32,417 nucleotides of DNA, from contig WTKA01000074.1 of the NCBI GenBank assembly GCA_011524605.1, forward strand, positions 14,734 to 47,150. Reading direction: 5' to 3'. The notes under the pieces were generated by a model. That model saw only the letters and a program-made list of their open reading frames with translations, had not been told where the DNA came from and did no database searches. The translations under genes were made by a program, and so were the position numbers. The DNA comes from Hyphomicrobiales bacterium (lineage in GTDB: Bacteria; Pseudomonadota; Alphaproteobacteria; Rhizobiales; WTKA01). Positions 1,557-24,985 of the stretch are shown piece by piece; within the stretch, counting starts at the first letter, position 1; the number at the start of each line of letters is the position of its first letter.

Positions 1557-3506
1557 TTATTTTGTCATGCGGTTAGCGATTAGATCATCAACAACGGCCG
1601 GGTCAGCTAAAGTTGATGTATCCCCTAAATTACTCAGTTCATTTTCTGCTATTTTTCGCAAGATACGGCGCATAATTTTTCCAGACCTTGTTTTTGGTAA
1701 GCCGGGAGCAAATTGAATAGCGTCCGGGGAGGCAATAGGGCCAATTTCTTGGCGCACCCAGTTGCGTAATTCTATTTTCAAATCATCAGAGGTTTCTTCC
1801 CCTGCCATTAAAGTAACATAGCAGTAAATGCCTTGTCCTTTAATATCATGGGGAAAGCCAACAACAGCCGCTTCAGAGACTTTAGGATGGGCAACAAGGG
1901 CAGATTCTACTTCAGCTGTGCCCATACGATGGCCTGAAACATTGATAACATCATCAACACGACCGGTAATCCAATGATAGCCATCCTCATCACGGCGGCA
2001 TCCGTCGCCTGTGAAATAGACCCCGTCATAGGTCGAGAAATAGGTTTGAATAAAGCGTTCATGATCACCATAAACTGTCCGCATTTGCCCCGGCCAAGAT
2101 CGCTTTAAAATGAGATTGCCTTCACAAGCCCCCTCTTTCTCATTGCCCTTATCATCAACAATCGCTGGCTCAATACCAAAAAATGGTCGTGTTGCAGACC
2201 CTGGTTTTAAATCTGTTGCCCCTGGCAATGGCGTTATTAAAATGCCGCCCGTTTCTGTTTGCCACCATGTGTCAACAATTGGGCATTTCCCGTCGCCAAC
2301 AAGGTTATAATACCATTCCCAAGCTTCTGGGTTGATCGGTTCACCAACTGACCCTAAAACTCTTAACGATTGCCGCGATGTTGACTTAACATAATCATCA
2401 CCTGCCCCCATAAGTGCCCTAATTGCTGTTGGTGCTGTGTAAAAAATATTAACATCATGCTTGTCAATCACTTGCCAAAAACGCGATGCATCAGGATAAG
2501 TAGGCACGCCTTCAAACATCAGCGTCGTTGCTCCATTGGCAAGCGGGCCATATACAATATAGCTATGACCTGTGACCCAGCCCACATCAGCGGTACACCA
2601 GTAGATGTCGCCATCATGATAGTCAAAGACATATTGATGCGTCATAGAGGCATAAACAAGATAGCCCCCTGTTGTATGCAAGACCCCTTTCGGCTTGCCT
2701 GTTGAGCCTGATGTATATAATATGAACAGAGGGTCTTCCGCATTCATTTCCTCTGCTGGGCAATCTGTTGATTGATGTGGCACGATATCGTGATAATAAA
2801 TATCACGCCCTGCTTCCATATGGACATTGCCGCCAGTCCGTTTAACAACAAGGCAATTTTTTATACGTTGGGCAACTTGTTCATCTTCCGCTGCTTTATC
2901 AAAATTTGCTTTTAACGGTACATTTTTTCCGCCGCGAACACTTTCATCAGCGGTAATAATATAATGGCTATCACAATCAATGATACGCCCTGCTAAGGCA
3001 TCTGGAGAAAAACCGCCAAACACGATTGAATGCACAGCGCCAATGCGCGTACAAGCAAGCATTGCATAGGCTGCTTCTGGGATCATAGGCATATATAATG
3101 TGACGCGATCCCCTTTTTTAACACCCATTTTCTTAAGCGCATTGGCAAGTTTGCAAACATGTTCATGAAGTTCTGCGTAGGAAATATATTGGCTCTCGTT
3201 TGGGTTATCCCCTTCCCAAATGATAGCAGTTTGGCTGCCACGATTAGCTAGGTGGCGATCAATACAATTAGAGGAAACATTTAGTGTGCCATCTTCATAC
3301 CATTTAATAGCAAGATCTTTTTTGTCATAGGAGACATTTGAAATTGTTTTATAGGGTTTAATCCAGTCTAGCCTTTGCCCTTGTTCACGCCAAAAATCAT
3401 CATTATTTTCTATGGAATATTTATAAAGATCTTGATAGGTTTTATCATCTAAATAGGCGTTATCAGCCCACGATTTTGATACTTTATATCTTTGGCTTTC
3501 GGACAT
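1557..3506 (-). CDS. acs: Acetyl-CoA synthetase (AMP-forming)
   Basis: Converts acetate, ATP and CoA to acetyl-CoA via acetyl-AMP in the cytoplasm; EC 6.2.1.1. At 649 residues it is full length for the family. Visible motifs are the adenylate-forming signature [11 protein letters not shown] (264-274), DTWWQTETG (412-420, with the acetate-pocket Trp at 414), the hinge region [13 protein letters not shown] (515-527), and the C-terminal [11 protein letters not shown] with Lys610, the conserved catalytic lysine and acetylation site in this family. A clear Shine-Dalgarno GGAGGG at 3512-3517 fixes the start. A perfect minus-strand TATAAT at 3528-3533 is a possible -10, though very close to the ribosome site. 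It ends in a strong terminator. Confidence 0.97.
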
Positions 3507-3836
3507 TTTTTCCCTCCAATTATTTTAATTATACTCTTTTTACAGGAATTGATTTGAAAATAAAATCACAACTTTCGTTGCAGTTAATTATTTTATTATT
3601 CATCAATTTTCGCTGATATTAGGCCTATCAGAAGGCATTATGTTTCTTAATATAAAATTAAGAATAAAATTCAAATTCAAAATATAGCTTTGATTTTTGC
3701 TTTACGAATCCATTTAGTTCACTTAATGTTCTTTTATTGTTCCTCTTTGTTCGGGTTTGTTCCCGGGAACATTGAGAGCCATAAGAAATTGGAAATTCAA
3801 ATTTTGGTCTTAACCAGATATAAAACGGAGAAACCG
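3507..3836. other. 330-bp divergent intergenic region
   Basis: No gene is supported here. It holds the acs leader (Shine-Dalgarno at 3512-3517), a short inverted repeat CTGATA/TATCAG at 3613-3631, the GTTC-box array at 3728-3770, and a good Shine-Dalgarno (ACGGAG) just before the start at 3837. An open frame that runs from 3690 into the downstream gene has no ribosome site at its upstream ATG, and its first 49 residues look like translated intergenic sequence. Confidence 0.6.
3728..3742 (+). promoter_or_regulatory. Candidate LexA (SOS) operator, GTTC-N7-GTTC
   Basis: GTTC at 3728-3731 and GTTC at 3739-3742 are separated by exactly seven bases. This is the direct-repeat LexA box known from alphaproteobacteria. 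Two more GTTC elements follow at 3749-3752 and 3759-3762 with 6-bp spacers, so four sit on one face of the helix. The last forms the perfect 12-bp palindrome GTTCCCGGGAAC (3759-3770). The box lies about 95 bp upstream of the 162-aa gene and about 220 bp upstream of divergent acs. LexA control is inferred from the motif alone. Confidence 0.5.
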
Positions 3837-4325
3837 ATGTCAAATTTAGCAACTTTTCGTTTCGCACGCTTTGATGATTTTACACCGATGCTGACTTTAG
3901 CTCAAAAACTGGGTCTTCCGACTTCTCCTATTCATGATGTGATAAAAGGAGAGGGCTGTAAGGGAGATGTTTGGCTTGTTGCGGAATATGAAGGAAGCTT
4001 GTTAGCTTTTTGTCATTGCAAGCGCGCTCGTCAAGCTAATCCTTTATTGAAAATGCAAATCTTTGCTGTTGGCGATGATTGGCTTGAGCATGGTTTTGGT
4101 TGGGCTATGATGCGTTATGCAGAAGCTGTTGCAAAAACCTATGGCGCGCGATTAATTTGGCTTGATGGCGTGACAGAATATAACTGGCAGCCATGGGGAT
4201 TGCCTCACATTAGTGGGAATGAAAATATGATTTCTGAGCAGGTATATAATCCAAAAGCTGCACCTGTTCGAGAAGCGCGCTGGCATGCAACGCCAACTCA
4301 ATCAACATTGCGTGAGGCCGCTTAA
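3837..4325 (+). CDS. Small GNAT-like protein, function unknown
   Basis: 162 residues starting MSNLATFRFARFDDF; ACGGAG sits 6-7 nt before this ATG, so I prefer it over an upstream in-frame ATG at 3690. The order fits an acetyltransferase fold: an N-terminal R-F-x-D-F strand/helix, a central pair of strands (VWLVAEYEGSLLAFCHC, about 46-62), then LEHGFGWAMMRYAEAVAKTYGARLIWL (about 83-109). HGFGWAMM could stand where the acetyl-CoA pyrophosphate loop (Q/RxxGxG/A) normally is. The C-terminus after about 120 is rich in Trp/Pro and unlike standard GNATs. The family assignment is tentative and the substrate unknown. A LexA-type box upstream suggests damage-inducible expression. Confidence 0.6.
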   Translation: MSNLATFRFARFDDFTPMLTLAQKLGLPTSPIHDVIKGEGCKGDVWLVAEYEGSLLAFCHCKRARQANPLLKMQIFAVGDDWLEHGFGWAMMRYAEAVAKTYGARLIWLDGVTEYNWQPWGLPHISGNENMISEQVYNPKAAPVREARWHATPTQSTLREAA

Positions 4326-4416
4326 TGTTTTGACATAAAAAGAGCAAAGCTGATTATTCCTTCATTGTTAAAAAGAGTATATAAGAAGAGAGTGGTAAAA
4401 TGAGTAGGGAAGAAAA

Positions 4417-5880
4417 ATGGCTGCATCTCAATATTTTAAACGTGAAGCTATTTTTTTAAATGGTAGCTGGCGGCAGGCTAATAGTAATAAAAGCATCGAT
4501 GTTTTTAATCCAGCTAACGGGCAAAAAATTGGTTATGTTCCTAATGCTGGAGAAGAAGAAACAAGAGAAGTAGTTAAGGCTGCAAAGCTGGCTTTTGAAG
4601 ACTTTCGCAAAACAACAGCATTGGAACGTGCTAATATTTTAAGAAAGCTTCATGATGAGATCATGCAAAATCAAGAGGCTCTGGCTGAATTACTTACATT
4701 AGAGCAAGGGAAGCCTTTAGCAGAGGCAAGAGCAGAGATATCTATAGCTGCCTCTTATCTTTTGTGGTTTGCAGAAGAGGCGAGAAGAGTTTTTGGCGAT
4801 TTAATCCCTTCTCCCCATTCTGGTCAAAAATTAATGGTATCAAAACAGCCCATTGGTGTTGTGGCTGCGATAACACCGTGGAATTTCCCTTTTTCAATGA
4901 TTGCCCGCAAAGTTGGCCCTGCAATTGCAGCAGGATGTAGTGTGATTGTAAAACCATCAGAATTAACACCTTTTTCTGGCCTTGCTTGGGGGGTGATTGC
5001 TGAAGATATTGGTCTGCCTAACGGGGTGATTAATATTATAACAGGGGAGGCGGAGGCCATAGGGCATGTGTTAACAAGACACCTAGATGTAAGAAAGCTA
5101 ACATTCACAGGCTCTACCCGTGTGGGAAAGCAATTGCTTGAAAAGTCAGCAAGCACAGTCAAAAAAATATCAATGGAATTGGGGGGCAATGCACCCTTTA
5201 TTGTTTTTGAAGATGCAGATTTAGATAAAGCTGTTGAAGGCGCAATAGCAGCAAAATATCGTAATAGTGGGCAAACATGCATATGTACGAACCGCTTTTA
5301 TGTTCATGCTTCCATATATGATGATTTTGTAGAAAATTTCACAAAAGAAACTAAAAAACTAAAAGTCGGCAATGGCTTTGATCTAGATATTACACAAGGC
5401 CCACTAATCAATGAAGTAGCTATTGAAAAAGCAAAGCGGTTTGTTGAGGATGCAAAGCAAAAAGGCGGTGTGATTTTAACTGGAGGCAAGCCTTATCTTC
5501 ACTCTTTGGAGACGGGTTATTTTTTTGAACCAACAGTTATCGCAAATGCAACGAAGGATATGTTGTTTTCTAAGGAAGAAATTTTTGCGCCTATTGCTCC
5601 TATTTATAAATTTGAGAGTGAAGCAGAAGTTATAGCCTTAGCGAATGATACGGATTATGGATTAGCTGCTTATTTTTATACCCAAAATCTAGGCCGCAGC
5701 TTTCGTGTCTCCGATGCTTTAGATTATGGCATGATTGGTGTTAATGCCGCAATGTTGACCAAGGTTGAGGCGCCTTTTGGGGGCGTGAAAGCATCAGGGC
5801 TTGGCAAAGAAGGTGGTTCGCAAGGGATAGATGAATATCTTGAAAGCAAATATATATGCTTAGGTGGCTTAGAGGCTTAG
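4417..5880 (+). CDS. gabD: Succinate-semialdehyde dehydrogenase [NAD(P)+]
   Basis: Oxidises succinate semialdehyde to succinate, the last step of GABA degradation feeding the TCA cycle. 487 residues, normal for GabD. ALDH motifs in order: TPWNFPFS with Asn156, VIVKPSE with Lys179, FTGSTRVGK (230-238, dinucleotide loop), MELGGNAPF with the general base Glu254, and NSGQTCIC with catalytic Cys288 and a neighbouring Cys290. A similar Cys pair acts as a redox switch in some SSADH enzymes. The stretch KISMELGGNAPFIVFEDADL is close to enterobacterial GabD. AGGGAAG precedes the ATG. It is transcribed alone; no gabT or transporter is next to it, so substrate preference rests on similarity. Confidence 0.88.
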   Translation: MAASQYFKREAIFLNGSWRQANSNKSIDVFNPANGQKIGYVPNAGEEETREVVKAAKLAFEDFRKTTALERANILRKLHDEIMQNQEALAELLTLEQGKPLAEARAEISIAASYLLWFAEEARRVFGDLIPSPHSGQKLMVSKQPIGVVAAITPWNFPFSMIARKVGPAIAAGCSVIVKPSELTPFSGLAWGVIAEDIGLPNGVINIITGEAEAIGHVLTRHLDVRKLTFTGSTRVGKQLLEKSASTVKKISMELGGNAPFIVFEDADLDKAVEGAIAAKYRNSGQTCICTNRFYVHASIYDDFVENFTKETKKLKVGNGFDLDITQGPLINEVAIEKAKRFVEDAKQKGGVILTGGKPYLHSLETGYFFEPTVIANATKDMLFSKEEIFAPIAPIYKFESEAEVIALANDTDYGLAAYFYTQNLGRSFRVSDALDYGMIGVNAAMLTKVEAPFGGVKASGLGKEGGSQGIDEYLESKYICLGGLEA

Positions 5881-14478: not shown

Positions 14479-14559
14479 GAATAAATTCCTTATAAATTTC
14501 TTATAAATTCCCTATCATATAAGATAATAATATTAGATCTGCAATCAAATAGACCATTT

Positions 14560-15096
14560 TTACTGTAAATTGCTTACAGCTGATTTGAGCTCTGCAAGGG
14601 ATATTTCAAAAGCAATTGAAATATCAGGTGATAATGAATAGGTGAAAATCGCAGATCTACCTGCAAAAAATCGATTTAAAAGATCACTCGAGAGGGGTGT
14701 TTCTGTGATGCATCCGCCAGGCCAGCATTTAATGAAAGGCGTGTCGCCAACTTCCACACCATCAATATTTAATTTAAGCTTGTTGGGTAGAAAAACACCT
14801 AAAGGTGTCGTGACACGCATAAAAAAGCTGCCGTCATCTAAAAGCCTACCAATGGTAACGCCGATGCGCGCATTTTGGCGTTCTTTATTTTGGCTTTTTT
14901 GGACAAGGGCGCAAATTTCAGCGCTTGCTCCTGTTGGTGTTTCACACATGACATCCCAAGGCCCTACTCTACTTTTTAAAATTGACTGGGCGTTTGAAAG
15001 TTGCGGGGAAATAAAAAGAGCTAAAAAGGCGATGATAAAGATGATTCTATGCGTATTTTTTTTTCTCAATAAAGGGGTGTAGATCATTTCTAGCAT
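14560..15096 (-). CDS. Invasion-associated locus B (IalB) family secreted protein
   Basis: I choose the ATG at 15096 (MLEMIYTPLLRKK), with AAGGA about 10 nt upstream; the frame stays open to 15177 but the extra 27 codons look like translated leader. 178 residues. A basic N-terminus and hydrophobic stretch (17-31), ending near SNAQ (34-37), form a signal peptide. The mature part begins VGPWDVMCETPTG and has four Cys (51, 62, 124, 129), the pattern of IalB-family proteins that can make two disulfides. In Bartonella IalB aids red-cell invasion, but the family is general in free-living Hyphomicrobiales, so no virulence role is implied. It is divergent from the oxidase genes. Confidence 0.8.
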   Translation of the reverse strand: MLEMIYTPLLRKKNTHRIIFIIAFLALFISPQLSNAQSILKSRVGPWDVMCETPTGASAEICALVQKSQNKERQNARIGVTIGRLLDDGSFFMRVTTPLGVFLPNKLKLNIDGVEVGDTPFIKCWPGGCITETPLSSDLLNRFFAGRSAIFTYSLSPDISIAFEISLAELKSAVSNLQ

Positions 15097-15417
15097 TATC
15101 AAATTATCCTTAATTATAATAAAGGGACTATTATTTTTGAAAAAAGAGCATCTATTTAGGATATAAAATCCTTTCAACCCGTATAATAGCTTTTTAAACT
15201 CAAAAATTTATACAATATTTAAAATATTTCTAGCCTATCTTATAAACTTCTCGTATGAGAATTAGCTATAACAATGGCAAGGTGTGACGTAAAGGCTAGT
15301 TGAAAAAATAATATTGAAGTGATAGTGATTTCTCTAATTTTGGAAATTTGTCTTTTAAATACATTGCCAAGATAAACCGCATACAGCAAATACTTGATTT
15401 GAAGGGTTCACATAAAT
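15097..15417. other. 321-bp divergent intergenic region upstream of ctaC
   Basis: AT-rich, no gene supported. It must contain the promoters of the oxidase genes (plus) and of the IalB-family gene (minus). A GAAGGG about 12 nt before ctaC is the only ribosome-site-like element. I could not identify a convincing -35/-10 pair or a recognisable regulator site. Confidence 0.5.
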
Positions 15418-24353: not shown

Positions 24354-24406
24354 AGTTTTGCGCCATCAATTTAAAGATAAAATTATGAAATGAAAGGGCT
24401 GGCTTG

Positions 24407-24985
24407 ATGTTTGCCTTTATTAAAAAATCAAGACCAGAGCGCCCCTTTTTAAATGGTCAGAGCATTTATTTAAGAAGGCCTCATGAACTGGATTTTGAAA
24501 GCTGGCAGCGCATAAGAAAAAACTCAAAGGCAGAACTCAAACCCTTTGAGCCGACTTGGCAGGATGATGAGATTGCCCTATCAGGGTTTAAACGACGTTT
24601 GAATATTTATAAAGTCCATCAATTGCGAAAAACCGGCATGAGTTTTTTTATATTTCACAAGCAAAGCCATGCTCTTTTAGGCGCAATCACCCTTTCAAAC
24701 ATCCGTTATGGCGAAGTTCAAACCGCTGCTTTAGGCTATTGGCTTGGCACAGAATATACAGGCCATGGCTATATGCGAGAAGCCTTGCTATTATTAAGTT
24801 TATATAGCTTTGAAACACTGGGATTAAACCGCTTAGAAGCTGCTTGTATTAAAGAAAATGAGCGCTCTCAAAAACTATTACAGCATATGGGGTTTACCGC
24901 TGAAGGTATTTTGCGTTCTTATTTTCGCATTAATGGCGAATGGCGTGATCATATTTTATACTCTAAATTAAAGAAGGATGTTTAG
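24407..24985 (+). CDS. GNAT N-acetyltransferase, RimJ/RimL-like
   Basis: 192 residues from ATG 24407 (a TTG codon directly before it is an alternative). IYLRRPHELDFESWQRIRKNS at the N-terminus, the central GAITLSNI, LGYWLGTEYTGHGYMREAL (acetyl-CoA loop) and the C-terminal NERSQKLLQHMGFTAEGILRSYFRINGEWRDHILYS are typical of the RimJ group, which acetylates protein N-termini (RimJ: S5; RimL: L7/L12). The actual target is not determinable. Nudged against the M16 gene (53 nt), it is probably in one transcript with thrC and the peptidase. Confidence 0.9.
   Translation: MFAFIKKSRPERPFLNGQSIYLRRPHELDFESWQRIRKNSKAELKPFEPTWQDDEIALSGFKRRLNIYKVHQLRKTGMSFFIFHKQSHALLGAITLSNIRYGEVQTAALGYWLGTEYTGHGYMREALLLLSLYSFETLGLNRLEAACIKENERSQKLLQHMGFTAEGILRSYFRINGEWRDHILYSKLKKDV

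Follow-up and report, generated by a model that had tools for sequence, protein, structure and literature searches.

A helically phased GTTC array as a probable LexA operator of an orphan GNAT-family gene in a Hyphomicrobiales bacterium

Introduction

Which regulator would read a row of evenly spaced GTTC elements lying between divergent genes for acetyl-CoA synthetase and a small acetyltransferase-like protein, and which of the two genes would it serve? The locus is part of a 32,417-nt stretch of a Hyphomicrobiales genome (contig WTKA01000074.1), which was analysed whole and is called the window here. The original prediction described four GTTC elements ending in a perfect palindrome, saw in the first pair the spacing of an alphaproteobacterial LexA operator, and offered three possibilities: that the downstream gene is a new member of the SOS regulon, that another regulator binds the array cooperatively, or that the array acts on the divergent acs gene. 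According to PMC3323433, the LexA motif of Alphaproteobacteria is GTTC-N7-GTTC, and parE, comM and a splB homologue are among the SOS genes of this class.

Results

The array comprises five GTTC elements

The region between acs and the GNAT gene holds GTTC at 3717, 3728, 3739, 3749 and 3759, in steps of 11, 11, 10 and 10 bp. The original observation was right and understated: the four elements with steps of 11, 10 and 10 bp are present, as are the exact GTTC-N7-GTTC pair at 3728-3742 and the perfect 12-bp palindrome at 3759-3770, which the fifth GTTC opens, and a further element 11 bp upstream, at 3717, had been missed. That element is important, since the better of the two exact GTTC-N7-GTTC boxes depends on it: the pair that it opens (3717-3731), which overlaps the one already described. 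The putative GTTC half-sites of 3739-3762 face the same side of the helix as the two boxes. The features of the locus are as follows.

1557..3506, minus strand: acs (acetyl-CoA synthetase), divergent; judged not to be the target of the array
3717..3731, plus strand: predicted LexA box 1, GTTCACTTAATGTTC (N7), followed by TT; 20.9 bits; exact match to GTTC-N6-TGTTCTT
3728..3742, plus strand: predicted LexA box 2, GTTCTTTTATTGTTC (N7); 14.5 bits; half-site 3728-3731 common to box 1
3739..3762, plus strand: three GTTC at 10-bp steps (3739, 3749 and 3759; N6), candidate extra LexA half-sites
3759..3770, no strand: 12-bp palindrome GTTCCCGGGAAC that closes the array; sole copy in the genome
3827..3830, plus strand: GGAG, ribosome-binding site, read from the sequence
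3837..4325, plus strand: orphan 162-aa GNAT-fold acetyltransferase (PF00583), candidate SOS gene
4417..5880, plus strand: presumed aldehyde dehydrogenase, 91 bp after the GNAT gene on the same strand

A phased array of five elements goes far beyond what chance would produce. Shuffling of the window predicts 0.37 occurrences of GTTC-N7-GTTC against the two observed, and at least two were found in 5 of 100 shuffles; phased GTTC triples were absent from 13 Mb of simulated sequence matched in dinucleotide composition, and a rough analytic estimate puts the full array at about 3e-6 per genome. The palindrome is another matter. We rejected GTTCCCGGGAAC as a significant feature on frequency, as the window contains 14 perfect 12-bp palindromes where about 10 are expected.

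The window boxes match the SOS sites of the same genome

The source genome (2.3 Mb in 164 contigs) encodes both LexA (TIGR00498) and RecA (TIGR02012), each above cutoff. A pattern search finds GTTC-N7-GTTC 26 times genome-wide, and it stands 51-107 bp before lexA (whose own box is GTTCACATTATGTTC), recA, dinB, comM, parE and a PA0069/SplB-like radical SAM gene, with two overlapping boxes each at recA and the radical SAM gene. The PA0069-rSAM assignment rests on an NCBIfam match above cut-off, while ParE, DinB and YifB/ComM are named from best NCBIfam matches, some on partial sequence. These box-bearing genes agree with published SOS targets of Alphaproteobacteria, among which PMC3323433 names parE, comM and splB, and the genome therefore has an ordinary alphaproteobacterial SOS regulon. 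Among 15 loci examined that carry an SOS site with one mismatch, no site of uvrA or ssb was identified, because 14 of the 15 sit inside coding sequence.

The agreement extends beyond the GTTC cores. The longer pattern GTTC-N6-TGTTCTT has nine exact matches in the genome: seven are at SOS genes (parE, comM, lexA, dinB, the SplB-like gene and, twice, recA), one lies within the ribosomal-protein gene rplX, and the ninth is the window site at 3717. Using only the eight other SOS sites of the genome, and so leaving the window boxes out, we also derived a weight matrix and scanned the window with it; the genome-wide counts given here come from pattern searches. The two boxes took the first and second places, and the third-best place reached 10.1 bits; leave-one-out scores of the true SOS sites run from 14.6 to 27.1 bits. 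Three GTTC at two successive 11-bp steps occur at only three places genome-wide: ahead of the GNAT gene, of recA and of the SplB-like gene. The reversed control of this pattern has no match in the genome. Box-to-ATG distances for the GNAT gene (120 and 109 bp) are near those of recA, and box 2 fits the Caulobacter LexA consensus, (T/A)TGTTC(N6)TGTTC (PMC13384398). The GNAT gene thus has an operator-like site upstream, in a genome whose lexA and recA carry the same operator, and the match reaches past the GTTC core. The LexA reading of the original prediction is well supported by this sharing of box, extended motif and matrix score with the genome's own SOS sites.

The downstream gene encodes an orphan GNAT-family protein

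The 162-aa product, which begins at the ATG at 3837, had been called GNAT-like by inspection, and the family is borne out by a PF00583 match over residues 43-114 (E 8e-7; 29.8 bits against a gathering score of 20.7). The position of motif A, (R/Q)xxGx(G/A), reads LEHGFG, a weakened form in which the glycines are kept and L takes the place of R/Q. Codon-position GC resembles that of the neighbouring genes. The protein has no PADLOC match and no NCBIfam match at E <= 1, and a structure predicted from its sequence alone was of poor quality (pLDDT 45).

No orthologue was found by peptide patterns among 84,980 species genomes, nor in 60 relatives, genome contigs, plasmids, phages and viral contigs. 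Weak similarity, at 26-35% identity and short of orthology, occurs in 4 of 398 genomes of the order and 1 of 385 of the class, the source organism being the sole representative of its family in the collections sampled. GTTC-N7-GTTC is absent near these five weak homologues; one of them (L150) has scattered GAAC-N7-GAAC far upstream. No GNAT protein is named among the alphaproteobacterial SOS genes in the passages of PMC3323433 consulted, and the word acetyltransferase is absent from the main text of PMC4211646 and PMC13384398. The suggestion of a new SOS member is therefore the likely status of this gene, which is probably a lineage-specific one.

The product of the next gene on the same strand is presumably an aldehyde dehydrogenase of the succinate-semialdehyde type; the gene has its own promoter-like sequence (4330-4357). 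Elsewhere in the window, a second GNAT-like protein of 193 aa (24404-24985), RimJ-type by eye, is encoded without a LexA-type box, and a tandem repeat of ATAAATTCCTT (14481-14515; 3.2 copies, 11-bp period) lies directly downstream of a gene for a small secreted-type protein (14560-15177, minus strand).

Phased arrays occur elsewhere in the order

From 3739 onward the array follows an N6 spacing rather than the canonical alphaproteobacterial N7. It is possible, as far as sequence comparison goes, that the GTTC elements of 3739-3762 are extra LexA half-sites, and the segment 3739-3752, GTTCCTCTTTGTTC, is the dinB box GTTCCTCTTTTGTTC minus one T. Four-element GTTC arrays, with an N7 step followed by N6 or N7 steps, were found in 10 of 398 genomes of the order, several of them as simple repeats. 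Four of these genomes, three belonging to a single genus and the fourth to another family, have an array with steps of 11, 10 and 11 bp at a distance of 115-166 bp from the dnaE start:

L183, L184, L185 and L188, about 1501-1536 in each: four GTTC (steps 11, 10, 11), tandem LexA-type boxes before dnaE

Phased arrays with a 10-bp step therefore exist at a replication gene elsewhere in the order, and so such mixed arrays accompany replication and repair genes. This raises the question of whether alphaproteobacterial LexA can use 10-bp half-sites beside its canonical 11-bp box.

Other GTTC arrays came to light in the same survey. In a genome of another family of the order (L143, about 1501-1573), the gene for an adenosylcobalamin-dependent ribonucleotide reductase (NrdJ, TIGR02504) has its start 47 bp from a triple array. 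In L144 and L145 (about 1016-1526), likewise of another family, a triple array adjoins the gene for a conserved, possibly SOS-linked protein (about 147 aa), which is Cas2-like by eye (MRTYLISYDL...) and has no NCBIfam match. Near the start of a contig in one further genome of the order (L186, 364-433), a perfect tandem of GTTCCCCGAAT repeats GTTC seven or more times at 11-bp steps and could be either an expanded LexA-type array or a simple repeat.

The spacing of the 3' half bears on the proposal that a different cooperative regulator is the main user of the array, or at least of the palindrome and the 10-bp-phased 3' half, the LexA-like spacing of the first pairs being incidental or a second input. 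The segment 3739-3770 does depart from N7 and does end in a perfect palindrome found nowhere else in the genome. Nevertheless, the match of boxes 1 and 2 to the SOS sites of the genome goes beyond their GTTC cores, palindromes of this length are common by chance in the window, and mixed N7/N6 arrays stand before dnaE elsewhere in the order, and we consider a different main regulator improbable.

acs is an unlikely target

The idea that the array serves acs, either exclusively or jointly with the GNAT gene, draws on the divergent arrangement of the two genes and the intergenic region common to both; in its fullest form the GNAT protein would be an AcuA-like lysine acetyltransferase that switches Acs off. 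The acs start codon, however, ends at 3506, 211 bp away from the array, and GTTC-N7-GTTC was found in none of 80 acs upstream regions of other genomes (within 700 bp), on which ground we rejected acs regulation by the array. Nor did any relative of the GNAT protein appear at these 80 acs loci at E <= 1. The lack of an NCBIfam match already described is joined by solved-structure matches that include no AcuA: the PDB yielded nothing beyond an antibody chain and a glyphosate N-acetyltransferase (E 0.57), in libraries that may lack an AcuA entry. These comparisons make acs an unlikely target, and control of acs, with or without an AcuA-like role for its neighbour, very improbable.

The least credible account, chance or the simple tandem expansion of T-rich units of 10-11 bp with no regulatory role, can point to a weak 10-bp repeat reported by TRF at 3737-3763, but the GTTC cores are intact while the spacers have diverged, the array is far rarer than expected by chance, and the SOS genes of this genome bear the same motif.

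Discussion

Our comparison of the array with the SOS sites of its own genome makes it very probable that it is a LexA operator of the 162-aa GNAT gene, which would be repressed by LexA and induced by DNA damage. Damage induction of this gene is probable because its upstream boxes are those found before recA, lexA and dinB. The control mechanism is well known; what is new is the GNAT gene as a candidate member of the regulon. Three results weigh against this reading: the collections searched yielded no orthologue in which conservation of the box would show, the consensus scan gave no confident promoter, and the spacing from 3739 onward is not the canonical one.

We infer the following course of events. 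A LexA dimer would occupy one of the two overlapping GTTC-N7-GTTC direct repeats (3717-3742) and block transcription of the gene at 3837; a consensus scan found no promoter overlapping the array and gave no confident promoter assignment. Upon DNA damage, RecA filaments would form and LexA would cleave itself, and the GNAT protein would be expressed together with the products of recA, lexA, dinB, comM, parE and the SplB-like gene. The further pair of GTTC, at 10-bp steps, may seat a second LexA dimer beside the first, giving tighter repression; alternatively, these elements may be decayed boxes that have lost one base. Under genotoxic stress, the enzyme would then acetylate a small molecule or a protein.

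It is tempting to go further and to read the five half-sites, one per helical turn, as an operator on which several LexA dimers stand side by side across N7 and N6 steps, imposing unusually tight, late-release control on a lineage-specific acetyltransferase whose task in the SOS response would be to detoxify a genotoxin or to modify a protein. This extended form of the proposal is speculative and, in our judgement, rather unlikely. With LexA control of the GNAT gene as such, a regulon that is otherwise conventional for Alphaproteobacteria would gain a probable SOS gene of non-repair type, and this in a lineage that has no close relatives in the collections sampled.

Comparison with known systems

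The window boxes resemble the alphaproteobacterial LexA operator (PMC13384398, PMC3323433) in core, spacing, the T before the second GTTC, the AT-rich spacer and the position before a gene; they differ in that two boxes overlap and two further half-sites follow at 10-bp steps. Box 1 departs from the Caulobacter consensus in having A rather than T before its first GTTC, as does the site of lexA itself in this genome. The triples before recA and the PA0069/SplB-like gene likewise consist of three GTTC at 11-bp steps, whereas the window array extends by two more GTTC at 10-bp steps. The quadruple arrays before dnaE share the helically phased mixture of N7 and N6 spacings, but in them an N6 step links two separate N7 boxes, while the order in the window is N7, N7, N6, N6 and the gene is a different one.

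Two systems offer parallels for the gene rather than for its operator. In Bacillus subtilis, acuA is divergent from acsA (PMC11255334), an arrangement like that of the GNAT gene and acs here; unlike in Bacillus, no acuB or acuC follows, and the acetyltransferase has no detectable relation to AcuA. In E. coli, the GNAT protein YafP is encoded in the SOS-regulated dinB-yafNOP operon (PMC9578287). We rejected a shared origin with YafP, as the two proteins show no sequence similarity (E 11), and the gene described here stands alone, with no adjoining toxin-antitoxin pair. YafP is nevertheless a functional parallel: a GNAT-type protein under SOS control, as is predicted for the GNAT protein of this bacterium.
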